A stretch of 64,000 nt of DNA, from positions 930,001 through 994,000 of the forward strand of contig NZ_CP074102.1 in assembly GCF_018310535.1 (NCBI RefSeq), given 5' to 3'. This document shows, in pieces, positions 42,880 through 58,499 of this stretch; position 1 is the first letter of the stretch, and each line of letters starts with the position of its first letter. The notes beneath the pieces are model-generated. The model was not told the origin of the DNA. It did no database searches and was given only the letters and a program-made list of their open reading frames with translations. Position numbers and translations under genes: made by a program. The DNA is from Streptomyces mirabilis (lineage in GTDB: Bacteria; Actinomycetota; Actinomycetes; Streptomycetales; Streptomycetaceae).

Positions 42880-44016
42880 GTGACCTCTCCCGTCTCCCCT
42901 TCGGATCACGTCACACCGCGTACGGCTCTGCCCGCAGCGCAGTACGCCGCATCCCGGCATGCGGCGTGGCTCGGCGCCGCCGCGATCATCACCGACGAGG
43001 TCGGCCGGGTCCTGCTGGTGCACCCCACCTACCGCAAGGACGACTCGTGGCTGCTGCCCGGAGGCGTCGTCGAACCCGGCGAACACCCGCACATCACCTG
43101 CCGGCGCGAGATCACCGAGGAACTGGGCCTGGATCTGCCCCTGTCGGCCGTGCTCGCCGTCCACTCCTTCTCCCCGCACCACCCCGACCTCCAACCCGGC
43201 ACGCCCTGCCCCGGAGAGGTCCGGTTCGTCTTCGACGGGGGAACCCTCACCCCCGACCAGGCGGAGGCGATCCGCCTGCCGCACGAGGAGCTGTCCGAGT
43301 ACGCCTTCCTGGAGAGCCGGGACGCGGTGCAGCGGCTGCGCCCCGTGGACGGGCAGATCATGCTCGCCGCCTACCGTGCCCGGCTCGGGAACACCGCCAC
43401 CGCTCACCTCGCCGACGGCCGGCACATCCTCGACGTCCCGGCGCTGGACCGCCACGACGTGCACGTCCGCTACCGGCCCTTGTGGGACAGCCCTCTCAAC
43501 CGCGGCCCCGTCCCCGGGCAGCTGCCCATGCAGCAAGCCTGGGCGTGGTGCTTCGTCCCCGACGGCCGGGTCGTCCTCGTGGCCGACCCCGGCCCGCGGG
43601 GCGCGCTGCCGATGCTGCCCGGCGGCACCATGGAGAGCACCGACGCGACGCCCGAGGACACCCTGCACCGCGAAGCCGCCGAGGAAGCCCAGCTCACCCT
43701 GGCCGATCCGGTGCGACTGGGCTGGGTGCTGGACGAGACCGGCGAGGTCTACGGCGGCGTGGGGCCCAACGCCCGGCTGCGCCTGGCCGCCCGGGTCACC
43801 GCCATCGGGCCGGCGGCCGTCGACCCCGCCACCGGCCACCCCTTCGCCCGCCTGCTCACCACCCCCACCCAGGCAGCCGCCCTGCTGGGCTGGGGCCCGC
43901 CCGGCACGCGGCAAGCCCAGCTCGCAGGGGAAACAGCACGGGATCGGTGGGGCCTGCCCACGGCCCGCGCCGCCTCCATCGAGGAGATCCCGGCGGAGGG
44001 GATGCGGCTGAGCTGA
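42880..44016 (+). CDS. Tandem double-NUDIX protein
   Basis: Two NUDIX hydrolase domains in one chain of 378 residues. Domain 1 (about 27-165) has the box GGVVEPGEHPHITCRREITE then ELGL. Domain 2 (about 205-340) has GGTMESTDATPEDTLHREAA then EEAQL, ending in Gln where Gly is usual. Each opens with the expected strand (AAIITDEVGRVLLVHPTYRK; AWAWCFVPDGRVVLVADPGP). NUDIX enzymes hydrolyse nucleoside diphosphates linked to another group; the substrate is unknown. GTG 42880 has GAAAGG upstream. It lies 61 bp after the exporter gene and may be co-transcribed. Confidence 0.85.
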   Translation: MTSPVSPSDHVTPRTALPAAQYAASRHAAWLGAAAIITDEVGRVLLVHPTYRKDDSWLLPGGVVEPGEHPHITCRREITEELGLDLPLSAVLAVHSFSPHHPDLQPGTPCPGEVRFVFDGGTLTPDQAEAIRLPHEELSEYAFLESRDAVQRLRPVDGQIMLAAYRARLGNTATAHLADGRHILDVPALDRHDVHVRYRPLWDSPLNRGPVPGQLPMQQAWAWCFVPDGRVVLVADPGPRGALPMLPGGTMESTDATPEDTLHREAAEEAQLTLADPVRLGWVLDETGEVYGGVGPNARLRLAARVTAIGPAAVDPATGHPFARLLTTPTQAAALLGWGPPGTRQAQLAGETARDRWGLPTARAASIEEIPAEGMRLS

Positions 44017-44073
44017 CCCGAACGACCGCCCCGCCTCCACTCGTCCCGCTCCACGTCCCTCTGAGGTAGCCCC

Positions 44074-45558
44074 ATGCCGTTGTCGCACGACCACATCCGC
44101 ACCACTGTCGAGACCTACCTCGCTCGCCACCCTCACGAGCGCGAGCAGCTCGGCGGCCTCCTGGACGCCCTCGACCGTCCTACCGACATCGCCAGCCGCT
44201 CCACCTTCACCGGACACGTCACCTGCGGCGCAATCGTCGTCGACCCGCTCGGCCGCGTCCTGCACGTGCTGCACCTGGCGAGCGGGAAGGTCCTCGCCCC
44301 CGGCGGACACACCGAGCCCGCCGACGAGTCCCTGGCAGCAGCGGCGCTGCGGGAGCTGCACGAGGAGACCGGGATCCCGCCCCAGGCCGTCACGCCGTGG
44401 CCCGGCTACGAGGCCGTGCCGTTCGACATCGACATCCACGACATCGACGCCCACCCGGGCAAAGGCGAACCCGGACACCAGCACTTCGACCTCCGGTTCC
44501 TCTTCCGCCTGCACACTGCGACAGATGTGCCGGTGGTGCTGCAGGAAGAAGAGGTCGGCGGCATCGAGTGGCGGCCCGTGGACAGGGTGACCTCCCCGTC
44601 CCTGCGCGAGAAGCTGCTCAAGCTCCCGCCGAAGACCGAACCGGATACGGCCAACGCCTCCGCCCTGATCTACAACGACCGCGGCGAGTACCTGCTCCAC
44701 CTGCGCGACTACTTCCCCGGCCGGATCTGGGAGCCGGGCATGTGGTCCCTGCTGGGCGGCGGCCGAGAGCCCCAGGACGCCACCCTGGAACACACCGTGC
44801 GGCGCGAACTGGCCGAGGAAGCCGGCCTCGACATCGCCGATCTCACCCCGTTCGGCACCGAGTACGCCACCGACGACGCCGGCGCGACCGTGCCCATCGC
44901 CATCTACGCGGGCCGCTGGAACGGCGATCCCCGCGAGCTCCACCTGACGGAAGGGGTGATGCTGGCCTGGTTCACCCCCGACGACCTCCACCGCCTCCGT
45001 ATCACAGACACCACCAGCGACCTCGCACGGCGCCACGCCGCCAGCCGCCCCGCCGGCACCGCGCCACAGAGCGGGCTCTCATCCCACGAGGAGTGCCGGT
45101 CTACCTCCCCGCACGGCACGGTCCTCAACGTCATCGGCGTCCACCTCTACCTGGAACGGCCCGACGGAACGGTACTGCTCGGACTGCGCCACCCCGACTC
45201 CGCGTTCGCGCCGTCCACCTGGCACGTCCTGGCCGGCCACTGCGAGCAGGAGAACGCCATCACCTGCCTGATCAGGGAGGCACGGGAGGAAGCCGGCCTG
45301 CACATCGAGCGACCGGACGTCGAACTCGTCCACGTCGTCCACCACATCGACCGCGCCGGGGACCGGCCCCGCATGGGCCTGTTCTTCCGCACCCGCACCT
45401 GGAGCGGCGAGCCGGAACTGCGCGAGCCGGACAAGTGCACCCAGTGGAGATTCTGGGACCCGGTCGCGCTCCCCGACAACCTCGTCTCCTACACTCGGGT
45501 GGCCATCGGAAAGATCCAGAACGGGGAGCTGTACAGCGAGACGGGCTGGCCCGCATGA
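44074..45558 (+). CDS. Triple-NUDIX protein
   Basis: Three NUDIX domains in tandem in 494 residues, an unusual layout. Boxes: GGHTEPADESLAAAALRELH-EETG (domain 1, about 77-100), GGGREPQDATLEHTVRRELA-EEAG (domain 2, about 227-250) and AGHCEQENAITCLIREARE-EAG (domain 3, about 388-409). The REUxEE core is intact in all three, while the spacing between the first Gly and first Glu varies, and domain 2 lacks the first Glu. Domain 3 resembles the single-domain NUDIX pyrophosphatases. Linkers are short and hydrophilic. Its stop overlaps the kinase-VanX gene (ATGA). Confidence 0.85.
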   Translation: MPLSHDHIRTTVETYLARHPHEREQLGGLLDALDRPTDIASRSTFTGHVTCGAIVVDPLGRVLHVLHLASGKVLAPGGHTEPADESLAAAALRELHEETGIPPQAVTPWPGYEAVPFDIDIHDIDAHPGKGEPGHQHFDLRFLFRLHTATDVPVVLQEEEVGGIEWRPVDRVTSPSLREKLLKLPPKTEPDTANASALIYNDRGEYLLHLRDYFPGRIWEPGMWSLLGGGREPQDATLEHTVRRELAEEAGLDIADLTPFGTEYATDDAGATVPIAIYAGRWNGDPRELHLTEGVMLAWFTPDDLHRLRITDTTSDLARRHAASRPAGTAPQSGLSSHEECRSTSPHGTVLNVIGVHLYLERPDGTVLLGLRHPDSAFAPSTWHVLAGHCEQENAITCLIREAREEAGLHIERPDVELVHVVHHIDRAGDRPRMGLFFRTRTWSGEPELREPDKCTQWRFWDPVALPDNLVSYTRVAIGKIQNGELYSETGWPA

Positions 45559-46823
45559 CCGGCACACCGAGCGGCGCACCCTGTCACGTGTCTGTTGCAA
45601 CTGCGGCCGGACGTCCGGGCACTCGCCTCGTGGTGATCCGCGGCAACTCGGCGTCAGGCAAGTCAAGCGTGGCCCAGGGCCTGCGAGACCACTACGGCCG
45701 CGGTATCGCGATCGTGGGCCAGGACGTGATCCGCCGGAACGTGCTCAGGGAACACGACACCGCGCGCGGCGCCAACATCGCTCTGCTGGGCAGGATCGCG
45801 CGTGACGCCCTGGACGCCGGCTTTCACGTCGTACTCGAAGGGATCCTGTACGCCGACCGTTACGGCCACATGATCACGTCCCTGGTACGGGACCACCGCG
45901 GCGTCTCCAGCTGCTACTACCTGAACGTGCCGCTGGAAACGACATTTGTCCGACATGCGTCGAAGGCGGATGCCGCGTACCTGGAGCAAGTCACCGACAC
46001 CCACCTCGCCTCCTGGTACCGCGAGCTGGATCTATTGCCCGGCGGTCTGGAGACCGTGATCCCGGCCGCCAGCACGCTACAGGACACCGTCGCGCGCATC
46101 CTGCGCGAAATCGACCTGGCCTCTGCCTCTCCCGTCCCGCCACCGCAGTGCCAGCCGTCACAGGGAGACTCGATGAAGCCTCTGGTGTTGATGTCCGATC
46201 CCCAGGTCGCCGCGATCCCGGTGCGCGAGTGCGGGGAGCCGCTCGTCGACGTGCGCGATTACAACTTCCGCGTCGATCCCCGCAAGCAGGATCCGCTGGG
46301 CGCGTTCACCCACGTCCGCGAGGGCGTCCTGGCCCGCCTGAAGCACGCCCGCTCGCTCCTGCCCGCTGGCACCGACCTGCTGTTCATCGAGGGCTACCGG
46401 CCGCTCTCCCTCCAGCATCGTTACTTCACCGAGTACCGGGACGAGCTGGCCGCCGCTCAGCCCGGCTGGACAGCTGAGCAGCTGCACCACGCCGCCAGCC
46501 GCTACGTGTCACCGCCAGAGATCGCGCCCCACTCCGCGGGCGCGGCCGTGGACGTCACCCTCGTCGACCAGGACGGCCACGAACTCGACCTCGGTACCCG
46601 TGTCAATGCCTCCCCCGAGGAGAGCGACGGGGCCTGCTTCACGCACGCCCCGAACCTCAGCGATCAGGCGCGTCACCACCGCACGCTGCTGCTCAACGCC
46701 ATGGAGAACGCGGGCTTTACGAACTATGGAACCGAGTTCTGGCACTTCTCAGTGGCGGACCGGTACGACGCGCTGATGCGGCAGAAGTCGCACGCTCGCT
46801 ACGGACCGATCGAACTGCCTTAG
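45555..46823 (+). CDS. P-loop kinase fused to VanX-type D,D-dipeptidase
   Basis: One open frame of 422 residues without internal stop. Residues about 25-195 are a small-molecule kinase: P-loop VIRGNSASGKSSVAQGL, IAIVGQDVIRRNVL and HVVLEGILYADRYGHMI. Residues about 207-422 are an M15D zinc dipeptidase of the VanX/DdpX type: DLLFIEGYRPLSLQHRYFTE, zinc ligands in IAPHSAGAAVDVTLVDQ (HxxxxxxD) and catalytic Glu plus His in TEFWHFSVADRY. AGGGAGACTCG precedes the Met at 46173, so the dipeptidase may also be made alone from an internal start. In other organisms these are separate genes. D-Ala-D-Ala or a related dipeptide is the family substrate. Confidence 0.82.
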   Translation: MTGTPSGAPCHVSVATAAGRPGTRLVVIRGNSASGKSSVAQGLRDHYGRGIAIVGQDVIRRNVLREHDTARGANIALLGRIARDALDAGFHVVLEGILYADRYGHMITSLVRDHRGVSSCYYLNVPLETTFVRHASKADAAYLEQVTDTHLASWYRELDLLPGGLETVIPAASTLQDTVARILREIDLASASPVPPPQCQPSQGDSMKPLVLMSDPQVAAIPVRECGEPLVDVRDYNFRVDPRKQDPLGAFTHVREGVLARLKHARSLLPAGTDLLFIEGYRPLSLQHRYFTEYRDELAAAQPGWTAEQLHHAASRYVSPPEIAPHSAGAAVDVTLVDQDGHELDLGTRVNASPEESDGACFTHAPNLSDQARHHRTLLLNAMENAGFTNYGTEFWHFSVADRYDALMRQKSHARYGPIELP

Positions 46824-46953: not shown

Positions 46954-47856
46954 ATGCCTGACGACACCCAGCAGGCGATCCCAGCCGTCCCGAGCCCGGC
47001 GGACGGAGACGTACCGCCCGAGCACCACATGCACCTGCTCGGGCGGTACTACCGCCAAGTGGAAGCAGGGCGCAAGACGATCGAAGTGAGGGTGGCCACG
47101 CCGAACAAGCGCGACATCGGCGTCGGCGACACGGTCGTCTTCCACGACCGGGACACCGGCCAGGAACTCGACGTCATCGTGCAGCGGATCACCCCGTACC
47201 CCTCCTTCGAGGACCTGCTCAGCTCGGAGGACGCCGCACGCATCGACCCCGACGGGCCGCCCGGAGACCTGCTCGCCAACCTCCGCAGCATCTACCCGCC
47301 GGCCAAGGAAGCCCTCGGCGCTCTCGCCCTCGCGTTCGACCACCGCCCTGCACGGCCGGGCCGCCCCATGCCGATGACGCCCACGCAGTACGCGCAGACC
47401 GTGCCCCACCACACGGTGTACGGCTGCCTCTACATCCGCGACGCGAACGACCGGCCGGTCCAGCTCCGCTCGGTCTACGGCTCGAGACTCTGGCAGTTCC
47501 CGGGCGGCAACTTGGACACCGCAGGCGAGGACCCGCTGCAGACCGCACGGCGAGAGGCAGTCGAGGAAACGAGCCTCGAACTCGGTCTGGAAACGCCGAA
47601 GCTGCTCCTGACGCACTTCCTGCACGCCGGGCCGCGCCAGCCGCTGAACAAGGTGGGGCTCATCTTCGACGGAGGCCGGCTGACCGCCGGCCAGCTCGGC
47701 CGGATCCGCCTCGATCCCGCCGAGCACGACATGTGGGCCGTCCACGACCTCGCGACCTGGCAGGAGCTGATGGCACCGCGCGCCTTCGCCCGCCTCGACG
47801 CCATCGAACGAGCCCGGCGCGGCGAGGGCCTCGCCTACCTGATCACGCACACCTGA
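46954..47856 (+). CDS. ASCH-NUDIX fusion protein
   Basis: A 300-residue protein. The N-terminal ASCH domain (about 25-115) is shown by MHLLGRYYRQVEAGRKTIEV, KRDIGVGDTVVFHDRDTG and FEDLLSSEDA; this fold binds nucleic acids or nucleotides. The C-terminal NUDIX domain (about 145-285) has GGNLDTAGEDPLQTARREAV then EETSLEL. ASCH and NUDIX are both nucleotide-linked, so a modified nucleotide substrate is plausible but unproven. It follows a 130-bp gap, and ATCGAACGGAGG supports the ATG. Confidence 0.82.
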   Translation: MPDDTQQAIPAVPSPADGDVPPEHHMHLLGRYYRQVEAGRKTIEVRVATPNKRDIGVGDTVVFHDRDTGQELDVIVQRITPYPSFEDLLSSEDAARIDPDGPPGDLLANLRSIYPPAKEALGALALAFDHRPARPGRPMPMTPTQYAQTVPHHTVYGCLYIRDANDRPVQLRSVYGSRLWQFPGGNLDTAGEDPLQTARREAVEETSLELGLETPKLLLTHFLHAGPRQPLNKVGLIFDGGRLTAGQLGRIRLDPAEHDMWAVHDLATWQELMAPRAFARLDAIERARRGEGLAYLITHT

Positions 47857-47885
47857 TCCCCAGCACCCCCACCCAGGAGGCAACC

Positions 47886-49058
47886 GTGCCCGCCGAGGAC
47901 ACCAACACCAGGGCCTGGCAGATCTACGGCCAGCGCCAACTGGCCCGCGCCTACACCCCGCCCATCCCCGACCGGCTCGGCTGGGCGCCCTGGGAAGGGA
48001 TCGGACCGGGAGCAGAAGTCCTCGGTGACGTGGCCGGTCGCCAGGTTCTGGACATCGGATCCGGAGCCGGCCACCACGCCGTCCACCTCGCCCAGACGTA
48101 CGGAGCCCGCGTCACCGGCATCGAGCTGTCCCCTACCCAGCACGAACGCGCCGTCTCCGCCCACGCGGACGTTGACGGCGTGGAGTTCGTCCAAGCAGAC
48201 GTGGCCGCGTACCTGACCGGAGCCGAGCCGTTCGACGCCGCGTACGCGATCGGGACTCTCGCCTTCATCGACCCGCACCGCTCGCTGCCGGCACTGCGCG
48301 ACGGCCTGCGTCGCGGCGCTCCTCTGATCCTCTCGCTCCTGCACACCGACCTGCACGGCCGCGGCCCGTCCACGGAGGTGGCGCCGCGCGAGCAGATGAT
48401 CCTGCTGCGCGACGACCCGCCCCTGCCGACACAGATGTGGGTCTTGGCACCGCAGCTGTGGGAAGACCTGCTCACCGAGTACGGCTTCCGCGTCGAGGCA
48501 ATCGACCTGTTCCCGCACCCCGACGAGAGCGCCACGGTAATCCAGCAGCTCATCCGCGCCCGGCGACTGCCCGACCGGCCGGCGCGCGTCTCCAGCCGCA
48601 CACGCAGCACTAGAGCACCAGCCGCACACGCGGCCGTCGGCGTCGGAGCGATCCTGCTGAGCGAGCAGGGCATCCTGTTGGGCCGGCACCGCCGCGGCAC
48701 CCTCGAACTACCAGGCGGCAGCGTGGAGGCCGGGGAATCCTTCGAGGACGCGGTGATCCGCGAACTCGCCGAGGAGACTGGTCTGGTCGCTCGCGCCGAT
48801 GACGTGAGGCTCCTGGGCACGCTCATCGACCACGTCGCTGGTGTCCTGCGGGTCACCGTCGGCGCGCTCGTGCACGCCTGGCAGGGGCAGCCCGCCACGC
48901 AGCCGGACGAGAGCGTCGGCGACTGGGCGTGGTACCCGCTCGATCAGCTCCCCGACGGCCTGTTCGTATGCAGCGCCCAGATTCTCACCGCCTGGCGGCC
49001 CGACCTGGCCATCGACCACCCGTCGGCGCACTTCACTGCCTTCGCCCCAGCCAAGTAG
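47886..49058 (+). CDS. SAM methyltransferase-NUDIX fusion protein
   Basis: A 390-residue fusion. Residues about 10-235 are a class I SAM methyltransferase, with motif I VLDIGSGAGHHAVHLAQTYG (about 55-74), GARVTGIELSPTQHERAVSA and FDAAYAIGTLAFIDPHRSLP. Residues about 250-385 are a NUDIX domain with GGSVEAGESFEDAVIRELAE then ETGL. GTG at 47886 has AGGAGG at 47875-47880. The architecture suggests a methylated nucleotide or nucleotide-linked intermediate handled by one chain. Confidence 0.83.
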   Translation: MPAEDTNTRAWQIYGQRQLARAYTPPIPDRLGWAPWEGIGPGAEVLGDVAGRQVLDIGSGAGHHAVHLAQTYGARVTGIELSPTQHERAVSAHADVDGVEFVQADVAAYLTGAEPFDAAYAIGTLAFIDPHRSLPALRDGLRRGAPLILSLLHTDLHGRGPSTEVAPREQMILLRDDPPLPTQMWVLAPQLWEDLLTEYGFRVEAIDLFPHPDESATVIQQLIRARRLPDRPARVSSRTRSTRAPAAHAAVGVGAILLSEQGILLGRHRRGTLELPGGSVEAGESFEDAVIRELAEETGLVARADDVRLLGTLIDHVAGVLRVTVGALVHAWQGQPATQPDESVGDWAWYPLDQLPDGLFVCSAQILTAWRPDLAIDHPSAHFTAFAPAK

Positions 49059-49166: not shown

Positions 49167-50285
49167 ATGTCGCATCTCTCCATGCGCCGGTCCATATCCT
49201 CGGACGGCGCCGTCGGCACCGAACGCCTGCATGATCTGGAGCGGGCTGCCGTGCGCCACGGAGTACCCGTCGAGGACGTGGTGCTGATCGCCGTCAACCT
49301 GTACGGGATCACCTCCGACCAGGACCGTCACCGGGCCCGGGTCAACCTCCGCCTCGCACGCCGTCCCGACGTTCCCTGGCAGATCATCGTCCCGCTGAAC
49401 CAGCCGGCCAGCCCGTTCCAGCTCCGGGGCGACGAGCTGTCGCTGAACGGCGAGGTAGTCGCGCACGTCGAGCGCATCGATGCCGACGAGGCGGTCGGGG
49501 GGTACTTCCGCAACGACGGCCGCGCCGCGACCCTCAACCCCAACGCCCGCAGCCGGTGCGTCGGGTGCGGCTGGTGCCCGAACACCCTGGAGGCCGCCGC
49601 CGATCCGAGGATGCAGGAAGACCAGGGACTCGACGCCTTGCTGCGCGCCCTCGGCGAGCAGCACCCCCGCCGCAGCCTGGCCGAGCTGACCGAGGTCACC
49701 GTCTCCACCGGCTGTTTCGAGCGCGAGGAGGCGGCCGTCGCGCACCTGACCGCCCTGCGGCCCGCTCTGGAGCGGGCCGGCGTCAAGGCTCGGATCGGCT
49801 TCCTCACCTCCGTGCTGCGCAGCGACGAGGCGTTCGAGACCATCGCGTCGCAGGTGTCACCGTTCGTGCTCAGGCTGACGGCCGAGCACTTCACCCGGCG
49901 GGAGGCACTGATGAAGGCGACCAAGGCCGACCTTCGGCCGGAGCAGATGCCGGACCTGCTGACGCGGGCGCGGGAGGCGGGGCTGGACACCTCATACACG
50001 TACATCGTCGGGCTGGACCCGATGGAGGACCTCGTGCGCGGGGTGAACGCAGTGGCGGGCGAGGTCACCGCGTTCCCGAACTTCCAGGTCTTCCAGGCAC
50101 ACACGGTGATGATGCAGGGGATGCGGACGCCGGGCGCGGAGAGCCTGGAGTACTACCTGCGGGCGCGTACGGCGATCGAGCGGGCCATGGCGCCGACCGG
50201 GCTGCGGCCGGTGGGCTGGGAGTGCTACCGGCCGCTGTGGTACTTCACCTACGCGGGAGAGGACCTCGTCGATGGACCCCGCTGA
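49167..50285 (+). CDS. Radical SAM-type protein with CX2CX2C motif
   Basis: A 372-residue protein started at ATG 49167 with GGAG six bases upstream. It has a long N-terminal region (about 130 residues, VVLIAVNLYGITSDQDRHRA, VPWQIIVPLNQPASPFQLRG) before the cluster motif NARSRCVGCGWCPNT, which reads CX2CX2C rather than the classical CX3CX2C. A TIM-barrel-like second half follows (LTEVTVSTGCFEREEAAVAH, FVLRLTAEHFTRREALMKAT, GLDTSYTYIVGLDPMEDLVR), similar to radical SAM barrel strands with DP and GLD turns. I call it radical SAM with moderate confidence. Its end overlaps the enolase-superfamily start by 14 bp. Confidence 0.68.
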   Translation: MSHLSMRRSISSDGAVGTERLHDLERAAVRHGVPVEDVVLIAVNLYGITSDQDRHRARVNLRLARRPDVPWQIIVPLNQPASPFQLRGDELSLNGEVVAHVERIDADEAVGGYFRNDGRAATLNPNARSRCVGCGWCPNTLEAAADPRMQEDQGLDALLRALGEQHPRRSLAELTEVTVSTGCFEREEAAVAHLTALRPALERAGVKARIGFLTSVLRSDEAFETIASQVSPFVLRLTAEHFTRREALMKATKADLRPEQMPDLLTRAREAGLDTSYTYIVGLDPMEDLVRGVNAVAGEVTAFPNFQVFQAHTVMMQGMRTPGAESLEYYLRARTAIERAMAPTGLRPVGWECYRPLWYFTYAGEDLVDGPR

Positions 50286-51321
50286 CGCGGTCATCGACCG
50301 GGTGCAGGTCGAGCGCCTCGACGAGAGCGTGGCGGGTCCGTGGAAGGCTGGCGACAGTCGGTTCGCGGTAGTGGTCGAGGCCAGCGAGGTGAACGGGGTA
50401 TTCGCCCCGGTCGACGAGCTGCCCGCCGCGCTCGTCGCCTCCCGGCTTGGGCAGAGCGCTCTGCGGCACCCCGTGGCCGACCACACCGGTCTGCTGCGCA
50501 GGCTCCTGGCCGAACTCGGTCCGCAGGCGGCGGGGCTCGGGCGCTGGGCGGTCGGGGCGTTGGACTGCGCGGTGTGGGACCTGCACGGCCGCCTCGCCGA
50601 CCTCCCGGTCGCGGCACTGCTCAGCGACCGGCCCGCGCCGCGGGTGCCGGTCTACGCCTCCTGGCTTTCACTGGACCTGGCCGCCGAGTCGGCCGCCGAG
50701 TCCGTCAAGGCCACCGCCGGTGAGGGGTTCGCCTTCACCAAGTGGGCCCTGCGCGGCGCTGAAGCCGCCGAGATGGTGCTGCTGGCCGAACTGGCGGCGA
50801 AGTGGGCGGGGGACAGTGTGGCGGTGGACGCCCTGGGCGCATGGGGGCACCTGCGGACCATGGAGGTTGCACCGCTCCTCACTCCGGAGACGGTGCGCTG
50901 GGTGGAGGACCCGCTCGCGCGGACCGACCGGACCGCGTACACGCATCTGCACGAGCAGGCGAAGGGGCTGCGGATCGCGTTCGGCGAGCGGCTGTCCCAT
51001 GTGGAGGATGCCAGGGCCCTGCTGGAGCACTGCCGGCCGGAGGCGTTCACGTTCGACGCGGTGTGGTGCGGCGGCATCACCGAGGCTCGGGGCTGGCTGG
51101 GCGCCGCCCACGACGTTGGGGTCCCCGTCCACCTGCACGGGCGGGCGTTCCTGCCCGCCGTGCACCTGGCCGCAGCCTTCCCCGACGCGGCGGGCGCGGT
51201 GGAGTACCAGGTGGTGTGGGAGCCACGCCGCCAGCGGGCACTGTGCGGCACGCTCCAGCCGGACGGCGGGCACATCGCTCTCCCCGACCGGCCCGGTCTC
51301 GGGATGGAGGTGCGCCGGTAA
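50272..51321 (+). CDS. Enolase-superfamily (mandelate racemase/muconate lactonizing) enzyme
   Basis: A 349-residue enzyme with capping domain and (beta/alpha)7-beta barrel. It is expected to abstract an alpha-proton next to a carboxylate. The barrel base region is FAFTKWALRGAEAAEM (Lys at about 156), and metal ligands are probably Asp in VAVDALGAWGHLRTMEVAPL, Glu in RWVEDPLARTDRTAY and Glu in IAFGERLSHVEDARALL. The C-terminal region VHLHGRAFLPAVHLAAAF carries a candidate second catalytic His. It is coupled to the radical SAM gene and shares its stop with the next start (TAATG). Confidence 0.8.
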   Translation: MDPADAVIDRVQVERLDESVAGPWKAGDSRFAVVVEASEVNGVFAPVDELPAALVASRLGQSALRHPVADHTGLLRRLLAELGPQAAGLGRWAVGALDCAVWDLHGRLADLPVAALLSDRPAPRVPVYASWLSLDLAAESAAESVKATAGEGFAFTKWALRGAEAAEMVLLAELAAKWAGDSVAVDALGAWGHLRTMEVAPLLTPETVRWVEDPLARTDRTAYTHLHEQAKGLRIAFGERLSHVEDARALLEHCRPEAFTFDAVWCGGITEARGWLGAAHDVGVPVHLHGRAFLPAVHLAAAFPDAAGAVEYQVVWEPRRQRALCGTLQPDGGHIALPDRPGLGMEVRR

Positions 51322-51770
51322 TGCCCAGGCACACAGACGAGTTGGCGGTCCGCGGCCGCCTGGAGCGGCGCGAAGGGACAGAGCTGTTCGTCGTGGACGA
51401 GCGGCTGAGCGGCTACGACACCTTCCTGTCCACGACCCTTCGCCTCGACCGGCCGGTGCACCTGCCCGAACTCCCGGTCCGGATCCTTACGTTCGACGAC
51501 GTCACCGTCCTTGCGCCCCTCGTATCCGTCCTGCCCCAGGCGCAGGCCGGCGAGGGGTGGAGCGGCACGCTGCTGATTCCGCACGGCGCCCGCCCGCCGA
51601 CGATCCCCGACGACCTCGCCCAGGCCGCTGCCGAGGCCGGGGTCGACACCAGCGGCTGGTCGCCAGCCGAAGCAAGGCAACTGCTGACCTTCCTCGGCGA
51701 ATCCGGCTCCGGGCCCGTGCGCACCGAGCGGATCGGCCTGATCATCGCGGCTCTGGCGGGTCGTTCGTGA
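51321..51770 (+). CDS. Hypothetical protein (149 aa)
   Basis: Small soluble protein with a strand-rich first half (TELFVVDERLSGYDTFLSTT, PVRILTFDDVTVLAPL) and a helical end (EARQLLTFLGESGSGPVRTE, RIGLIIAALAG). The last helices weakly resemble the end of YdeI/OmpD-associated proteins, but this is not strong. Being translationally coupled on both sides (TAATG and GTGA) implies a role in the same pathway. Confidence 0.6.
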   Translation: MPRHTDELAVRGRLERREGTELFVVDERLSGYDTFLSTTLRLDRPVHLPELPVRILTFDDVTVLAPLVSVLPQAQAGEGWSGTLLIPHGARPPTIPDDLAQAAAEAGVDTSGWSPAEARQLLTFLGESGSGPVRTERIGLIIAALAGRS

Positions 51771-52465
51771 ACGCGGCCCCGGTGCGGCTGGTGAGCCTCG
51801 ATGTCGGATACACCCTGGGCGAGCCGTCCGGAACGACGTTGACGCAGCGCCTCGTGGAGCTGTCCCCGCTCCCGGCCCGGCAGGCGAAGCAGATCGCCCA
51901 GCAGATCCTGCACGCCCTGGACCCGCGCGCCGACGCGACAGCACCGCAGACGGTGTGTGCCGCTCTGGGGATCGCGCTGTCCGCCTTCCCCCACGACCAC
52001 CGTCCGCCCGGCTTCGCCCTGTGGCCTGGCGCGGTGGAGGCGGTGGCACGGATCGCGCGGGTCGTGCCGGTGGTCACCCTGTCGAACGTGAGCCACTGGG
52101 ACGAGCAGGAGACTGACGTCGCAGCCCTCCTCGCCCCCCACCTCCGGGCTCATCACCCGTCGTGGCAGCTCGGGTTCGCCAAACCCGACGCGCGCGCCGT
52201 GGAGACTGTCGCCCGGCTGCACGGCCGCGCCCCCGCAGAGGTGCTGCACGTCGGGGACAGCCTCGACTACGACGTACGCGGGGCCCTCGCCGCCGGAGCC
52301 CACGCACTGTGGATCACCTCGCGCCCGCCGTCGTCCGAGGCACTCCGGCTGCTGGCCGAGTACCCCGGCCGGGTCACGGCCGTACCGGACCTCACCCGTG
52401 CGGTCGAGCACATCGAGCAGACCGTCCTTCCGTCAACCCAGATGATCAGGAGTTTCACCCCGTGA
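51767..52465 (+). CDS. HAD-superfamily hydrolase
   Basis: Phosphatase-like protein of 232 residues. Motif I is VSLDVGYTLGEP, where the nucleophile Asp is present but the +2 acid is Gly. Motif II Thr/Ser is in PVVTLSNVSHW, motif III Lys is in LGFAKPDARAVETV, and motif IV is VLHVGDSLDYDVRGALAAG. The cap is helical. The missing +2 acid lowers phosphatase certainty. GTG start overlaps the previous stop, and its own TGA overlaps the methyltransferase GTG. A dephosphorylation step of a sugar- or nucleoside-type intermediate is likely. Confidence 0.8.
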   Translation: MNAAPVRLVSLDVGYTLGEPSGTTLTQRLVELSPLPARQAKQIAQQILHALDPRADATAPQTVCAALGIALSAFPHDHRPPGFALWPGAVEAVARIARVVPVVTLSNVSHWDEQETDVAALLAPHLRAHHPSWQLGFAKPDARAVETVARLHGRAPAEVLHVGDSLDYDVRGALAAGAHALWITSRPPSSEALRLLAEYPGRVTAVPDLTRAVEHIEQTVLPSTQMIRSFTP

Positions 52466-53241
52466 GCCAGTTCGACACCACTGCCCCGTACTACGCCGCC
52501 TACCGGCCCGGCATCCCGAAGGAAGCCGTCGAGCTGCTCGCTCAGCGGGTGGCCGGCAAGGAGCACCGGGCCCTGCTCGACCTCGGGTCCGGCACCGGGC
52601 AGGTCCCACTGGCCCTGGCCGGGGCGATGACGGAGATCGACGTCGTCGAGCAGGACGCGGGCATGCTCGCCGAGGCCGACAAGGCGCTCGCCGGGCTGCC
52701 GGTCACCGTCCGCCTGCACAACGCTCACGCCGAGGAGTTCACCCCGCCCGCCTCGTACCGGGCCGACGTCGTCACGGTCTGCCGCGCCTTTCACTGGATG
52801 AAGCAGGACGTGGTGCTGTCGCGTCTGGAGGGCATGACCACGCCGGACGCGACCGTCGCGGTCATGGGCGACGGAAGCCTGTGGACCGCGCGCACCGCGT
52901 GGACCGACGCCCTGCGCGCCCTGATCCAGGAGTACCTGGGAGAGGAGCGGCGGGCCGGGGTGGGCAAGAAGTACGCGGCGCACAACCGGCCGTACCGCGA
53001 GATCCTCGCCGAGTCCGCGTTCGGCCAGGTCGAGGAGCACACCGTCGCCGTCGAGCGGGAGTGGAGCACCGAGACGGTGATCGGCTACCTGTACTCGGCC
53101 TCCTTCGCCGCCCGGCCGCTGTTCGGCGAGCGGGTCGACGACTTCGAGCGCCGTGCCCGGGCTCTGCTCGACGAGCACGTCGCCGGCGGCGGCCTGATCG
53201 AGCACGCCTCCTTCCAGATCGTCCTCGGCCGGCGCGGCTGA
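52462..53241 (+). CDS. Class I SAM-dependent methyltransferase
   Basis: A 259-residue methyltransferase. The N-terminus MSQFDTTAPYYAAYRPGIPK is a common opening. Motif I is ALLDLGSGTGQVPLALAG (about 39-56), the acidic strand is TEIDVVEQDAGML, and FTPPASYRADVVTVCRAFHW is post motif I. O-, N- or C-methylation cannot be distinguished. It may modify the product of this cluster. Confidence 0.87.
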   Translation: MSQFDTTAPYYAAYRPGIPKEAVELLAQRVAGKEHRALLDLGSGTGQVPLALAGAMTEIDVVEQDAGMLAEADKALAGLPVTVRLHNAHAEEFTPPASYRADVVTVCRAFHWMKQDVVLSRLEGMTTPDATVAVMGDGSLWTARTAWTDALRALIQEYLGEERRAGVGKKYAAHNRPYREILAESAFGQVEEHTVAVEREWSTETVIGYLYSASFAARPLFGERVDDFERRARALLDEHVAGGGLIEHASFQIVLGRRG

Positions 53242-53324: not shown

Positions 53325-54095
53325 ATGCCCAGTCCTGTGACGTGGAGCGACGGCGAGCGGCGCCGGTTCGTCGCTGACGGCGTCCTCATACGCCGTGGCC
53401 TGGTCCACGGCGCCGTCCTGTCCCGGGCCCGTGACCTCGTCGGCGGCTGGCTGGCCGAGGCGTACGACCCCGCGCGGCTCACCCCCTACACCGAACGCAG
53501 CTTCGCCCCCGAGCTGGAGGAGCACCCCGACCTCCTGGCCCTCTACCAGCGAAGCGGCCTGGCGGAGTTGGCCGGAGACCTGCTGCGGCCCGCGAGGCCC
53601 GCCCCGGTCACCCGGGCGCAGATCCAGATCCGGCTTCCGCACGGCGCGCAGCAGCCGGTGAAGCGGATGCATGTCGATGGCGTCTCCTGCCCCCACCTGG
53701 AACCGCGCGACCTGCCCACGTTCACCTTCATCGTCGGCGTCGTCCTGGACGGCAGCGCCACCGCGGACGCCGGCGCTCTGCACTACGTGCCCGGAGGGCA
53801 CCACCGCATGGCCGACTACTTCGCCACGGACTGGGTCCTGGGGCAGCCGGCCCAGACCCCCGACGACATCGACGCCCAGGACGGCACCCCCCTCACCGCC
53901 GAGCCCAGCGACGTGGTCGTGATGCACCACCTCGTCCCGCACCGAGTCGGCCTCAACACCAGCAGCACCCCGAGGGTGATGGCGTACTTCCGGGTCCAGC
54001 ACGCCCAGCACCCCGACCTCGCCCTGCGCGCCCTGTCGGAACCGTGGTTGGAGTACCCGGCGCTCGGCGCCCTCGCCCGCCCCGGAACCGCGTGA
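53325..54095 (+). CDS. Phytanoyl-CoA dioxygenase (PhyH) family oxygenase 1
   Basis: Non-haem iron/2-oxoglutarate oxygenase of 256 residues. The iron triad is H-x-D in KRMHVDGVSCPHL (about residue 112) and the distal His in VVMHHLVPHRVGLNT, whose Arg would bind 2-oxoglutarate. Also typical: AGALHYVPGGHHRM. It has a very strong ribosome site (GAAGGAGAT) after an 83-bp gap, so expression may be boosted here. It probably hydroxylates or desaturates a pathway intermediate. Confidence 0.82.
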   Translation: MPSPVTWSDGERRRFVADGVLIRRGLVHGAVLSRARDLVGGWLAEAYDPARLTPYTERSFAPELEEHPDLLALYQRSGLAELAGDLLRPARPAPVTRAQIQIRLPHGAQQPVKRMHVDGVSCPHLEPRDLPTFTFIVGVVLDGSATADAGALHYVPGGHHRMADYFATDWVLGQPAQTPDDIDAQDGTPLTAEPSDVVVMHHLVPHRVGLNTSSTPRVMAYFRVQHAQHPDLALRALSEPWLEYPALGALARPGTA

Positions 54096-54109
54096 GAAAG
54101 GGGAGCACC

Positions 54110-54763
54110 GTGGACATCCTCACCCCCGCCCAGCTCCCCGACGCGGCCCGGCTCCTGGCCGCCGGGCAGATGGTCGCCGTACCCACCCCCCGCTGGTACA
54201 TGCTGTGTGCCCACGCCGACGACCCCGCCGCCACGAACGCGGTCTTCCGCGCCAAGCAGCGCCCCACCGCCAAGCCGCTGCTGCTCCTGCTCGACTCCCC
54301 AGCCACGGCCGAGACCCTGTTCAACCTGAGCAGCGACGCTCGCCTGCTGACCGGCGGCCTATGGCCGGGGGACCTCGCACTGCGTCTCCCGTGGAAGCCC
54401 GCCGTGGAGCCCGTCGCGGCGGTCGGCTCCCCTGCGCTCGTCGGATGCCCCGACGGAATCCTGGGCCAACTGGTCGCCCTGGCCGGCGAACCGCTGGCCG
54501 CCGCCGTGTGCAGCATCTCCACCCCCGCCGCCGGCGAGAAGGACCACCCGGCGCTCACTGCCGGCCAGGTCGCCGCCTTTGAGCGGACCACGGGGGCCGG
54601 GATCGGCGCGGTCGTCGACGGCGGTATCTGCCCGTACGGCCGGCACATGACCATCGTCGACTGCCCCGCGGACGCCGCCGCCCGCCTGGAGCGGGAGGGC
54701 ACCGTCCACGCCCGCGCCGTCGAAGCCGCTCTCATCCCGGCAGGAGGACCGCATGTGGGCTGA
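54110..54763 (+). CDS. Sua5/YciO/YrdC-family protein
   Basis: A 217-residue protein of the YrdC fold. Housekeeping members make threonylcarbamoyl-AMP from threonine, bicarbonate and ATP for tRNA modification. The KxR motif is in NAVFRAKQRPTAKPLLLLL (about 44-62), and the GGLWPGDLALRLPWKP region and ALAGEPLAAAVCSISTPAAG contain the expected nucleotide-binding strands; the SxN motif is less clear. An extra copy inside a biosynthetic run suggests carbamoyl-adenylate chemistry for a small molecule, as in carbamoylated antibiotics. GTG has AAAGGGGAG upstream. Confidence 0.75.
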   Translation: MDILTPAQLPDAARLLAAGQMVAVPTPRWYMLCAHADDPAATNAVFRAKQRPTAKPLLLLLDSPATAETLFNLSSDARLLTGGLWPGDLALRLPWKPAVEPVAAVGSPALVGCPDGILGQLVALAGEPLAAAVCSISTPAAGEKDHPALTAGQVAAFERTTGAGIGAVVDGGICPYGRHMTIVDCPADAAARLEREGTVHARAVEAALIPAGGPHVG

Positions 54764-56870
54764 CCTCGCCCGCCGCACGAACCGCCTGGTGCCCGACGCG
54801 TCGGTGGCCGCCGTCGCCGACGCGCTCGACTACCTCTGTCTCGCCCAGCTCTACCTGCGCGACAACCCCCTCCTGGCCCGGCCTCTGTCCCCGGCCGACG
54901 TCAAGACGCGACCGGCCGGCCACTGGGGAGTTTGCCCGCCCGTCAACCGGATGCTCGCTGCCCTGGGCCCGCTCCAGGCGGCCGTCCCCGACGGCTACGA
55001 GCTGCACGTCCTGCACGGCGCCGGGCACGCCGGCCCCTCCGCCCTCGCCCATGCCTACCTCATCGGCCGACTCGGTCACGCCCACCCCCACTTGCGCCAG
55101 GACGCGGCCGGACTGCGCGAACTCGTCGCGGGCTTCCCCCGGGCCGACATCGGCGGGGAGATCACCCCGATGATCCCCGGCCACCTGCACACCGGAGGCC
55201 AGCTCGGCCCCGCCCTCGCGATCGGGCAGGGCACCGTCCTCGACGCGCCCCACCGGCTGTCCGTGGTCCTGATCGGCGACGGCGAGTGCGAGACCGGGAC
55301 GACCGCCGCCTCCTGGCTCGCCACCCGCGCCCTGCACGGCACGGGCGACCACGGCACCGTTCTCCCCGTCGTCCTGCTCAACGGAATGCGCATGGGCGGC
55401 AAGAGCCTGCTGTCCACCCTGAGCCGCGCCGAACTCACCGCCTATTTCGCCGGCCTTGGGCACCGGCCCGTCTACAGCGACGGTCTCGACACCGGCCAGC
55501 TCCGCCAGGCGGTGGCCGAAGCGCTCGGCGCCGCCCAGCCCCTGGGCATTCCGGGACCGTCGAGCGTCCTGGTCCTCACCCTCGACAAGGGCCACGGCGC
55601 CCCCGCCCACCTCGCCGGCACCCCGGCGGTCCACAAGACGCCGCTGCGCGACCCGGCCGATGTGCCCGCCGAGTTCGACGCGCTCGCCGACTGGCTGGCC
55701 TCCTACCAGCCCACCCAGCTCCTCACCTCCAGCGGCCGGCCCCGGCCGCACCTGCTGCCCGCGCTCCCGCTGCCCCGCCCCGAGCCCGACGGCCTCCCGG
55801 CACCGCGCGGCTGCGTCGCCGCCTCCGCCCAGGTCGCCAGCCGCGCCGCCGGGCGCCCGTTCTCGCAGGTGGTTCCCGAGGTCCTGCGGGCCCGCGCCGA
55901 GCAGGGACCGTTCCGCGTGTTCAGCCCCGACGAGCTGGCCTCCAACCGCCTCGACCTCACCGACGAGGACGGACGCCCGGTGCCGTGGACGGTGGAAGTG
56001 CTCAGCGAGGAGTTGTGCCACGCCTGGGCCCAGGGCTACACGGAGACCGGCCGGCACGCACTCGTCGCCACCTACGAGGCGTTCGCGCCGATCACCCTCA
56101 GCCTCGTCCAGCAGCAGCTCAAGCACCGGTCCGTGCGTCGGCACGCCGGGCTCGCCCCGCTGCCCAGCCTGGTCTACCTCCTGACCGGCCTGAGCTGGCA
56201 CAACACCCTCACCCACCAAAACCCCAGCCTCACCTCGGCGCTCCTGGCCGGCGGCGACCCCACGCTTCACGTCCTCACCCCCGCCGACCCCGCGCGCACC
56301 GCCGCCGCCCTCACCTTCGCCCTACGCAAACTCGGCCGGTGCACGCTCGTCGTCGCCGGCAAGCACACGAGCGTCCACCACCCGCTGGACACCCTCGACG
56401 AGGAACTGCGGCACGGCATCGCGATCTGGCCCAACCTGACCCACCCCGGCCCCGGGGAACCCGACCTGATCCTCGTCTCCGTCGGCGACCTGCCCGCCGA
56501 GGCCCTGACCACCCTCGCCCAGCGGCTCCGCGCCGAACGCCCCGGCCTGCGCCTGCGGTACGTCCACGTCCACGACCTCACGGCCCTCGCCGAGGACGGC
56601 ACCCGCCCCCTCGCCCTCGCCCCGGACGCGTTCGCCCGCCACTTCGGCACCCGGGCGCCGATCGTCCTGGCCACCAGCGGGCACCCGGCCGACATCCACG
56701 CCCTCCTCGGCCGCCGTCACCCCGGGCCCCGGCTCACCGTACTCGGCTACCGCGACCCCGGCCGCCCCGTCTCCCAAGCCCGCCTCCGACAGCTCTGCGG
56801 CCTCGACGACGCCAGCCTGTGGCAGCTCGCCACCACCCTCACCGACACCCCGAAGGAGATACCGGCATGA
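54753..56870 (+). CDS. Divergent phosphoketolase-like TPP enzyme
   Basis: A 705-residue protein aligned along its length with xylulose-5-P/fructose-6-P phosphoketolase (about 790 residues). Shared blocks: WGVCPPVNRMLAAL, LHGAGHAGPSALAHAYL, VVLIGDGECETGTTAASWL (TPP/Mg site), YEAFAPI and TGLSWHNTLTHQNPSL. Several family residues differ: the SIHEGGELG block reads HLHTGGQLG, the His after ETGxxAxSW is Leu, and HLNGYKIANPT reads LLNGMRMGGKS. The altered pocket implies a non-standard acceptor or donor. The start overlaps the Sua5 stop. Confidence 0.8.
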   Translation: MWADLARRTNRLVPDASVAAVADALDYLCLAQLYLRDNPLLARPLSPADVKTRPAGHWGVCPPVNRMLAALGPLQAAVPDGYELHVLHGAGHAGPSALAHAYLIGRLGHAHPHLRQDAAGLRELVAGFPRADIGGEITPMIPGHLHTGGQLGPALAIGQGTVLDAPHRLSVVLIGDGECETGTTAASWLATRALHGTGDHGTVLPVVLLNGMRMGGKSLLSTLSRAELTAYFAGLGHRPVYSDGLDTGQLRQAVAEALGAAQPLGIPGPSSVLVLTLDKGHGAPAHLAGTPAVHKTPLRDPADVPAEFDALADWLASYQPTQLLTSSGRPRPHLLPALPLPRPEPDGLPAPRGCVAASAQVASRAAGRPFSQVVPEVLRARAEQGPFRVFSPDELASNRLDLTDEDGRPVPWTVEVLSEELCHAWAQGYTETGRHALVATYEAFAPITLSLVQQQLKHRSVRRHAGLAPLPSLVYLLTGLSWHNTLTHQNPSLTSALLAGGDPTLHVLTPADPARTAAALTFALRKLGRCTLVVAGKHTSVHHPLDTLDEELRHGIAIWPNLTHPGPGEPDLILVSVGDLPAEALTTLAQRLRAERPGLRLRYVHVHDLTALAEDGTRPLALAPDAFARHFGTRAPIVLATSGHPADIHALLGRRHPGPRLTVLGYRDPGRPVSQARLRQLCGLDDASLWQLATTLTDTPKEIPA

Positions 56871-57727
56871 GCACCCCGCTCCCACCCGTCGCCCCCGCCG
56901 CCGCCGTCATCGACAACTTCGAACGCGACGGGTACGCGGTCATCCGCGACGCGATCACCCCCGCCCTGCGCGACCAGCTCCTGACCGCCGCCGAGAAGCT
57001 ACTAGCCAGCGACATCACCCAGGGCCGCGACCGAGGAGGCGACGGCAAGGACGGCTTCCGCGGATGCCTCAACCTCGACCCCGCGTTCCTCCCGCTCCTC
57101 GCCAACCCGTCCGTCCTGCCCACCGTCGTCCAGCTCCTCAGCCCGAACATCCACCTGCTGTCCGCCCACCTCATCGCCTTGCCCAGCGGCCCGCCCCGCA
57201 CCATCCGCATCCCCGGACGCCACGGCTGGCACCGCGACATGTACGGCGTCACCGCCGACCTCGGCTTCCCCCACACCCCCCGCATGGCCATCAAGGCTGC
57301 CCACTACCTCACCCCCGTCACCCCCGACTGCGGGCTGACCATGTTCCTCCCCGGCAGCCACCGCCTCACCGAAGAACCAGTCGTCCCCGCCGGCGCCATC
57401 GACCCACCCGGCGCCATCACCCCCAACATCACCGGAACCGACGCAGTCCTCTTCGAGAACCGCACCTGGCACACCGGAGGCATCAACCTCTCCGGCCGAC
57501 TCCGCATCGCCCTGATGCTCCAGTACGGATACCGCTGGCTCCACCCCGTCGACGACCCTGCCACCAACCTCCGGAAAGACTCCGCTCTCACCCCCATCGA
57601 GCAGCAGCTCCTCGGCCTGCCCGACCGCCACCCGGACGGATCCCTCGCCAAGGGCAGCGGAGCCGCCCCCATCCGCTCGTGGTGGGAGACCGGCCCGTGG
57701 ACCCCCCTGTCGGCCAAGAAGCGCTAG
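56867..57727 (+). CDS. Phytanoyl-CoA dioxygenase (PhyH) family oxygenase 2
   Basis: Second iron/2-oxoglutarate oxygenase, 286 residues. H-x-D is in RHGWHRDMYGVTADLGFPHT (about 121-123), and the distal His is in LFENRTWHTGGINLSGRLR (about 203). CGLTMFLPGSHRLTEEP is the conserved strand pair. It is more similar to true PhyH enzymes than the first copy. Start ATG overlaps the phosphoketolase stop (ATGA). It likely performs a distinct oxidation in the same pathway. Confidence 0.85.
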   Translation: MSTPLPPVAPAAAVIDNFERDGYAVIRDAITPALRDQLLTAAEKLLASDITQGRDRGGDGKDGFRGCLNLDPAFLPLLANPSVLPTVVQLLSPNIHLLSAHLIALPSGPPRTIRIPGRHGWHRDMYGVTADLGFPHTPRMAIKAAHYLTPVTPDCGLTMFLPGSHRLTEEPVVPAGAIDPPGAITPNITGTDAVLFENRTWHTGGINLSGRLRIALMLQYGYRWLHPVDDPATNLRKDSALTPIEQQLLGLPDRHPDGSLAKGSGAAPIRSWWETGPWTPLSAKKR

Positions 57728-57918
57728 CCGAGATGATCGCCGTCGCCGAAAAAGCCGGAGAATCCGCCCTCGGCGGGCTCACGCTCCACCGGATCGCCGC
57801 CGACGGCACCACCGCCCCATGGCCACCGAACACCGGCCTCGACGCCACGCATCCTCTCGGCGTCCACCTCACCCACCGACTCCTTCACGGCGCCCCCCGC
57901 CGTTCAAACCCCCGCTAG
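57697..57918 (+). CDS. Small protein overlapping the second PhyH gene (73 aa)
   Basis: A frame from GTG 57697 (or ATG 57733) encodes EALAEMIAVAEKAGESALGG then LTLHRIAADG and ends GAPRRSNPR. It overlaps the end of the PhyH gene by 31 bp in another frame. Codon bias is normal and no family is recognised. It might be a small accessory protein. Confidence 0.4.
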   Translation: MDPPVGQEALAEMIAVAEKAGESALGGLTLHRIAADGTTAPWPPNTGLDATHPLGVHLTHRLLHGAPRRSNPR

Positions 57919-57983
57919 AACCACAACCACGGGTACGCCACAATGACCCCACCGGTACGAGCACCACGAGGGAGCACAACATC

Positions 57984-58499
57984 GTGAGCGAGCCGACCGC
58001 CATCCTGCTCATCGGGATCACCGGCTCCGGCAAAACCCACCTCGCCCAGGCCCTCGCGGACCACGGCCTCGTCCGACTCAGCGTGGACGAGGAGGTCCAC
58101 CGTCTCCACGGGCGGTACGGCGTCGATTACCCCGAACACGGGTACTTCGAGCGTGAGGCCCCCGCGGTCGAAACCGTACGCGCGCAGCTCACGGAGCACC
58201 TGCTCGTCGGCCACTCCGTCGTCCTCGACCACGGCCTGTGGCGTCGCTCCGATCGCGACGAGTGGAAGAAGACAGTCCGCGCCGCGGGCGGACGCCCGCT
58301 GATCGTCTACCTGCCGGCGTCCAAGGAGGAACTTCTGCGGCGCCTCGCCGCACGCAACCAGCGCCAGGACGCCAACGCGCTCGCCGTCACCCCCGAAGCC
58401 CTGGACGACTTCTTCGCCCGCTTCGAGCCCCCGGCCGAGGACGAGGACGCCACGGAGTACCACGGCGACATCGACGCGGTCTACTCGATGACGCAGTGA
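57984..58499 (+). CDS. P-loop ATP-binding kinase-like protein (171 aa)
   Basis: Small-molecule kinase-type P-loop protein. Walker A is LIGITGSGKTHLAQAL (about residues 9-24). VRLSVDEEVHRLHGRYGVDY and SVVLDHGLWRRSDRDEWKKT form the acceptor side, and RRLAARNQRQDANALAVTPE is the lid. It resembles the predicted kinase/AAA_33 proteins related to antibiotic phosphotransferases. GTG start has GAGGGAG upstream. It may supply the phosphorylated intermediate of this run or act independently. Confidence 0.78.
   Translation: MSEPTAILLIGITGSGKTHLAQALADHGLVRLSVDEEVHRLHGRYGVDYPEHGYFEREAPAVETVRAQLTEHLLVGHSVVLDHGLWRRSDRDEWKKTVRAAGGRPLIVYLPASKEELLRRLAARNQRQDANALAVTPEALDDFFARFEPPAEDEDATEYHGDIDAVYSMTQ

Follow-up and report, generated by a model that had tools for sequence, protein, structure and literature searches.

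A conserved nine-gene cassette with a CX2CX2C radical SAM enzyme lies behind an FxLD lanthipeptide region in Streptomyces mirabilis

The 64,000-nucleotide stretch of Streptomyces mirabilis analysed here (contig NZ_CP074102.1, positions 930,001 to 994,000; hereafter the window) carries a run of forward-strand genes from 42880 to 58499, which an initial annotation had read as one unrecognised biosynthetic pathway. This run consists of two modules, not one pathway, namely, module N (42880–49058), made of NUDIX and kinase–VanX genes, and module R (49167–57727), which begins with a gene for a radical S-adenosylmethionine (SAM) enzyme. We are confident that module R is a conserved nine-gene cassette, separate from its neighbours. 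The initial annotation saw a true unit and drew its borders too wide; the pathway that it proposed probably exists, for 49167–57727, where the genes are conserved together. In the reading that we favour and regard as rather likely, module R is a self-contained cassette for the biosynthesis of a small molecule, and stands behind the FxLD lanthipeptide and NUDIX region by happenstance. We are far less sure of the chemistry than of this unit and its independence, and the product and the order of the steps are guesses.

Conservation and distribution of the cassette

Module R was followed in two surveys. The protein encoded at 49167 served as query against 392 genomes of the same genus, and a scan of species genomes with an alignment of the radical SAM enzyme and two short peptide patterns yielded 70 loci, which were sorted by script; several genomes are common to both surveys, and the counts are not summed. 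Fifty-two actinobacterial loci among the 70 display three architectures (a lower bound, coming from one scan with two peptide patterns); they belong to more than 10 genera, and 45 of them keep the core gene order of their type. Type I, the window's kind, comprises 12 loci, in which the radical SAM gene is followed by genes for an enolase-superfamily enzyme, a 149-residue protein, a HAD hydrolase, a methyltransferase, a first PhyH oxygenase (PhyH1), a Sua5-like enzyme, a phosphoketolase-like enzyme (XFP) and a second PhyH oxygenase (PhyH2). The order is complete in nine of them, L059 and L088 ending at contig ends and L090 being truncated after PhyH1. In the 22 type II loci, the order is radical SAM, XFP, enolase, 149-residue protein, HAD, methyltransferase, creatininase, PhyH1 and Sua5, and it is kept in 20 (L074 has no XFP and L079 no creatininase). 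The 18 type III loci have a core of radical SAM, enolase, HAD, a GGDEF-OmdA-like protein and XFP, found in this order in 16 (L097 ends early and L106 is decayed), and PhyH2 and the methyltransferase follow this core in nine loci. The other 18 loci fall outside these types and include 14 lone radical SAM genes, two with a methyltransferase (L112 and L116), one from Treponema (L113) and one archaeal locus (L099).

With regard to the 392 genomes of the genus, the 49167 protein has matches in 26, 18 of them full length. XFP-like matches at an E-value of 1e-92 were obtained in 22 genomes, of which 16 hold copies with at least 43% identity, the others reaching 38–40%. Fifteen of these 16 genomes also match 49167, 14 with a full-length copy, and the exception (G075) contains pieces of a type III cassette (L166). 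The co-occurrence of the radical SAM and XFP-like genes in other genomes, which had been proposed as a check, is thus found in 14 of the 18 genomes with a full-length 49167 relative, against a chance expectation of about 0.7 (18 and 16 carriers in 392). Independent scattering of these genes in relatives had been named as what would tell against a common pathway; the genes at 49167–57727 are kept as a block instead. Pairwise distances of five cassette genes correlate (0.77–0.96 over 40 loci, 0.67–0.98 within types), which marks joint inheritance and not function, since linked genes share their history anyway. The ratios of nonsynonymous to synonymous substitution rates (dN/dS) calculated against six type I loci lie between 0.14 and 0.58 in all values listed.

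Separateness from the lanthipeptide and NUDIX genes

The FxLD class I lanthipeptide cluster (34059..40643, forward strand), which lies directly upstream in the window and outside module R, encodes a precursor-like peptide at 34059, whose sequence was read by eye, LanB, LanC, an FxLD methyltransferase and one more protein. PF04738, PF05147 and TIGR04364 match in this cluster, the methyltransferase reaching 420.6 bits against a TIGR04364 cut-off of 320. Module N, between this cluster and the cassette, comprises five forward genes, coding for a NUDIX protein (42880..44016, PF00293), a triple-NUDIX protein (44074..45558, three PF00293 stretches), a PRK06762-like kinase fused to an M15/VanX-type dipeptidase (45555..46823, with a corrected start in an ATGA overlap), an ASCH-like and NUDIX protein (46954..47856; PF00293 at 1.4e-8, ASCH at 20.7 bits for a cut-off of 21.2) and a methyltransferase–NUDIX fusion (47886..49058; PF13649 and PF00293). 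An RExxEE core is present in all seven NUDIX-like stretches of the module, two of which match the strict NUDIX box pattern, and the kinase–VanX fusion has both the P-loop and the M15 catalytic motifs.

The presence of these genes beside the cassette could mean that the whole run from 42880 to 58499 is one pathway, in which the NUDIX enzymes trim nucleotide intermediates and the product decorates the adjacent lanthipeptide. In the window, the genes are indeed on the same strand with short gaps; at least one NUDIX-block gene lies near nine of the 12 type I loci and at least one FxLD/lanthipeptide-region gene near eight, and a different NUDIX gene is found upstream in 14 type II loci, together with a regulator, a second HAD gene (13 loci) and an HD protein gene (12 loci). 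However, each module occurs without the other. The fused kinase–VanX, searched at a minimum of 84% identity, is present in 14 of the 392 genomes, 13 of them over the full length (a broken copy in G029 was left out, and many matches cover just the VanX part), and seven of the 14 have no cassette of the window's type beside it, one of these (G290) carrying a type II cassette elsewhere in its genome. L159 and L162 hold lanthipeptide-region and NUDIX genes, L161 NUDIX genes with distant ABC and FxLD relatives, and L165 NUDIX genes alongside fragments of ABC and 39531-type genes, all without module R, while L160, L163 and L164 have the kinase–VanX gene with or without NUDIX genes and no match to the FxLD region in the 20 kb fetched. 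These kinase–VanX loci without module R show that module N can stand apart from the cassette; FxLD genes often accompany it, although apparently not in every case. Conversely, the cassette is accompanied by neither NUDIX-block nor FxLD/lanthipeptide genes in three loci of type I (L067, L088 and L105), and no FxLD/lanthipeptide gene is among the matches listed for the 40 type II and III loci, although an ABC relative does occur in L072, L075, L078 and L100. Relics of the cassette also remain beside lanthipeptide and NUDIX genes (L043 and L053). A single pathway over the whole run is therefore improbable, and the lanthipeptide cluster, yet adjacent in the window, is not a constant companion of module R; as the latter occurs without FxLD/lanthipeptide genes, nothing shows that its product is joined to the lanthipeptide, as had been suggested.

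L033, L034, L159 and L162 additionally encode, flanked by the ABC gene and the NUDIX block, a second and shorter FxLD-type methyltransferase (31–39% identical) that the window lacks; pieces of it occur in L043 and L161. The DUF6082 protein encoded ahead of the lanthipeptide cluster in the window (33459–33926) has relatives whose genes closely precede the cassette in L046, L049 (same genome as L108), L088 and L107, which hints at shared regulation. In three type II loci from Micromonosporaceae (L069, L071 and L077), genes for an amino acid permease and a formamidase-family protein adjoin the cassette, accompanied in two of the three by a GPP34-family gene.

The radical SAM enzyme

The first cassette gene (49167..50285) codes for a protein without any Pfam or NCBIfam match, including PF04055, which the L037 and L112 copies match below the cut-off. 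Its predicted structure adopts a radical SAM partial barrel fold, and the known enzymes closest to this model by fold, namely, lipoyl synthase, HydG, MqnE, PylB, NosL, BioB and HydE, share 9–16% identity with it for the best chains listed. Three cysteines (C131, C134 and C137), the expected ligands of a [4Fe-4S] cluster, in a loop before the barrel helices are invariant in the 19 aligned rows, all of which have CX2CX2C spacing, and the same CxxCxxC motif is present in the L109, L112, L113, L114 and L118 sequences. The usual cysteine motif of the superfamily is CX3CX2C, from which the 49167 family thus departs. Exceptions to this spacing exist, as a passage of one paper gives CX5CX2C for HmdB (PMC9431491). 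Two further copies are listed for Streptomyces sp. NBC_01340: P0032, assigned to a plasmid, has a radical SAM part 100% identical to that of the window over 75%, followed by a group II intron/HNH-type end, and P0035 is a second copy (73%).

The phosphoketolase-like enzyme and the exchange of parts

The thiamine enzyme of the cassette (54753..56870) harbours the XFP_N, XFP and XFP_C domains (PF09364, PF03894 and PF09363) and a thiamine diphosphate motif, and aligns nearly full length to the solved structures 8io8 and 3ahc. With 705 residues, it is shorter than the phosphoketolases 8io8, 3ai7 and 3ahc (796–845 residues), and its genome encodes a second XFP, 36% identical. Using the numbering of chain 3ahc with its 20-residue offset, H64, H97, S440, E479, Y501, N549, H553 and K605 are retained, whereas the canonical substrate-site residues (H142, Q321 and R545–H548) are not: in all 11 aligned cassette XFP sequences, those of the archaeon and Treponema included, H142 is replaced by Glu and Q321 by Lys, R545–D547 are deleted and H548 is variable. 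The catalytic and substrate-site roles of these positions are those that we take them to have in phosphoketolases.

In the XFP tree, types I to III form one clade (100/99). Types I and III are joined (97/94), with type I nested within type III (92/87 and 94/92), and holding type III apart is rejected (p 0.018), whereas type III stays together at 99 in a quick radical SAM tree. The radical SAM, enolase, HAD and methyltransferase sequences of type I are nearer to type II, and its XFP and PhyH2 nearer to type III. Type I thus looks like a type II backbone in which an XFP–PhyH2 pair has replaced XFP and the creatininase. PhyH2 (56867..57727; PF05721 at 7.8e-15), which is found in types I and III and adjoins XFP in both, possesses the HxD motif and the distal His and Arg; its apparent acquisition as a pair with XFP suggests that the two enzymes act together.

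The other cassette enzymes

The enolase-superfamily enzyme (50272..51321; PF13378 at 1.4e-30) is of the mandelate racemase type (MR_MLE). K157, D186, E212, E239 and H289 do not vary among the 14 aligned rows; they comprise the metal triad and the Lys/His acid–base pair, in common with acid-sugar dehydratases of this type (talarate/galactarate, galactonate); its score is, however, far under their equivalog cut-offs (73.8 against 500 bits). The gene at 51321..51770 encodes the 149-residue protein, without a significant fold match in the PDB, whose C-terminal part resembles the end of the type III 387-residue protein (hhalign probability 95.9, E 5.6e-9, with a profile that included one type III-related row). 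The latter protein owes the name OmdA-like to a match to PF13376 at 0.0029, below the cut-off. The HAD hydrolase (51767..52465, PF00702) carries a D-x-G-x-T nucleophile motif, and an alignment of 13 sequences shows D12, K139, D164 and D169 kept and G14 at the position of the second Asp, a Gly shared by some known HAD phosphatases. It is followed by a class I SAM methyltransferase (52462..53241, PF13649), aligned in 11 rows, archaeal and Patescibacteria ones among them, and by PhyH1 (53325..54095; PF05721 at 1.1e-8), an Fe(II)/2-oxoglutarate oxygenase, like PhyH2, which is found in types I and II. The Sua5-like enzyme (54110..54763; PF01300 at 1.4e-17) shares the YrdC domain and the KxRP motif with the threonylcarbamoyl-AMP synthases Sua5/TsaC, but has 217 residues for 340–352 in Sua5 chains, shows PTxRWYM instead of the lost PTETVYGLG motif, and scores 68 bits for an equivalog cut-off of 123.2; a separate, higher-scoring Sua5 paralogue is encoded elsewhere in the genome. 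With that motif lost, the carbamoylated or nucleoside-like product suggested by the initial annotation is a conjecture.

Two enzymes of the other architectures could point to a purine-derived pathway, in which GTP-derived pyrimidines would be processed by GTP cyclohydrolase III-like and ArfB-like steps. GTP cyclohydrolase III resembles GGDEF folds, and type III loci have a GGDEF-like domain with a GGDEV motif, below the Pfam cut-off, fused to or beside the OmdA-like domain (L093, 12833–13459; L098, 12991–14148); the type II creatininase-fold enzyme, for its part, weakly matches ArfB (1.4e-7). The creatininase nevertheless fits MftE far better (9.8e-39, itself under the cut-off), the two enzymes never occur in the same architecture, and type I has neither, which makes such a pathway very unlikely.

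Distant relatives

A Thaumarchaeota locus (L099) gathers eight cassette families in a different order, plus a weak ATP-grasp match; it comes from a metagenome-assembled genome (MAG), and misbinning is possible. In Treponema (L113), the radical SAM gene is found with XFP and HAD genes. Two small Patescibacteria genomes encode in a row a split decarboxylase pair, a methyltransferase and a CX2CX2C radical SAM enzyme (L112, 2452–5499; L116, 8022–11077). The most widespread companion of the radical SAM gene is a thiamine enzyme, the split decarboxylase in the two Patescibacteria and XFP in Treponema, in the archaeal MAG and in types I to III.

The best equivalogs of the split pair are phosphonopyruvate decarboxylase (1.2e-45 for the C-terminal half in L112) and sulfopyruvate decarboxylase, and no phosphoenolpyruvate (PEP) mutase family match was found in the L112, L116 and L113 genomes. 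A standard phosphonate pathway is thus unlikely in the two Patescibacteria, but the radical SAM enzyme might itself form a C–P or C–S bonded pyruvate without PEP mutase, with the thiamine enzyme driving the reaction forward. The order of the genes in L112 and L116, where the radical SAM gene follows the decarboxylase-like pair, would fit this proposal. The pair scores below the equivalog cut-offs, however, so that its substrate may differ; types I to III use XFP instead, and there is no sign of phosphorus or sulfur transfer in the sequences. Besides, the window's genome has four PF13714 places, all away from this locus, and the two PEP mutase-family matches over the cut-off in the archaeal genome lie outside the fetched locus coordinates. 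Such a phosphonate or sulfonate pathway has, in our view, a low probability.

Organisation of the gene run and its flanks

Gene calling supports 15 forward genes with coding-type GC content at third codon positions in 42880–58499. The initial annotation had given about 16, most of them overlapping; the genes are real, but seven of the 14 junctions overlap, by 1–14 bp, hence half rather than most, and the remainder are separated by 14–256 bp. The three larger gaps precede 46954 (130 bp), 49167 (108 bp) and 57984 (256 bp), and the open reading frame at 51321 comes in addition to the genes named previously. The families then assigned (NUDIX, kinase–VanX, enolase, HAD, methyltransferase, two PhyH, Sua5/YrdC, XFP and kinase) were all recovered in family searches, and the radical SAM assignment of 49167 by its modelled fold. 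Module R is flanked downstream by an AAA_33 kinase gene (57984..58499, forward strand), which was scanned in a longer form from 57819; its homologues match from 57984, and its start (57819 or 57984) is uncertain. An amidase gene on the minus strand (58608–60035) comes directly after the run, and several relatives keep it next to their cassette or what is left of it. Elsewhere in the window, the region from about 12665 to 24486 has few confident genes and a weaker codon bias than its flanks, and is possibly decayed or mobile.

Proposed chemistry and its alternatives

Should module R direct the synthesis of a small molecule, the CX2CX2C radical SAM enzyme would make the committed change to the carbon skeleton, and its product, or a direct descendant, would carry a carbonyl, allowing the thiamine enzyme to break the neighbouring bond. 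The phosphoketolase-like enzyme may thus cleave, via thiamine diphosphate, a non-standard ketose or keto-acid phosphate, yielding a shortened aldehyde together with an acyl phosphate. The enolase-superfamily enzyme would abstract a proton adjoining a carboxylate (dehydration or epimerisation), the HAD hydrolase would remove phosphate, the PhyH oxygenases would hydroxylate and the cassette methyltransferase would methylate. In types I and II, the Sua5-like enzyme may convert a substrate that is not threonine into a carbamoyl- or acyl-adenylate and add the adenylated group. Such a pathway would end in a small polar compound derived from a carboxylate.

Several observations weigh against this reading. 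The core holds no transporter or resistance gene, which is unusual for an antibiotic pathway. Among the 18 genomes of the genus whose radical SAM gene is full length, four have no XFP-like gene (G099, where the locus is on an 8.2 kb contig; G008, where the gene is absent from the row; G055, with a lone radical SAM gene; and G316, with a decayed row), and of the 18 loci that belong to none of the three types, 14 have the radical SAM gene without any other cassette gene. Some dN/dS values near 0.57 indicate only moderate constraint. Relics of module R are found in Streptomyces (L035, L043, L053, L054 and L050/L051), several of them beside surviving lanthipeptide and NUDIX genes; in L043, residue 192 of the radical SAM enzyme is joined straight to residue 252 of PhyH2, and in G355 both ends of the radical SAM gene are present, about 32 kb apart. 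Given the decayed copies in L043, L053, L054 and L050/L051, the cassette is dispensable and has been repeatedly lost in this genus. Finally, the XFP tree pairs the Treponema copy with the other, canonical XFP of the window's genome and leaves the archaeal copy unplaced on a long branch, so that the substrate-site signature that these two copies share with types I to III may be old or convergent.

The absence of an exporter from the core would also suit an operon, catabolic or stress-related, that deals with an uncommon sugar acid, as would the breakdown capacities of a galactarate/galactonate dehydratase-like enolase, far under the cut-offs, a phosphoketolase and a phosphatase. Yet, in family searches, the core proved devoid of sugar transporters, dehydrogenases, sugar kinases and aldolases, whereas a radical SAM enzyme, a methyltransferase and two oxygenases would be costly and unusual for catabolism, and the distribution is patchy, with a radical SAM match in 26 of the 392 genomes. 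We consider this explanation unlikely and retain a small-molecule biosynthetic cassette as the preferred reading. Our literature searches, which covered open-access full text and not subscription literature, yielded no account of either this cluster or CX2CX2C radical SAM enzymes.

Significance

The cassette has no nonribosomal peptide synthetase (NRPS), polyketide synthase (PKS), terpene or ribosomally synthesised and post-translationally modified peptide (RiPP) enzyme of its own, and rule-based cluster finders are therefore likely to overlook it. Two targets for direct assay emerge from it, an altered phosphoketolase clade and a radical SAM family whose cysteine spacing is unusual. If the phosphoketolase does have a new substrate, a rare carbon–carbon cleavage would be added to the natural-product toolkit. 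More tentatively, and with considerable doubt, we can propose that module R represents a new class of natural-product pathway, in which a CX2CX2C radical SAM enzyme would build a carbon skeleton, to be cleaved to an acyl phosphate by a repurposed phosphoketolase (in candidate phyla, by a repurposed phosphonopyruvate-type decarboxylase); reuse of the core with swapped parts (creatininase, second PhyH, GGDEF-like domain, ATP-grasp-like enzyme) would yield related small molecules in actinobacteria as well as in an archaeon and a spirochaete. The locus also provides an example of a lanthipeptide cluster and an unrelated pathway resembling a single operon, and the product of module R is probably a small molecule not yet described.

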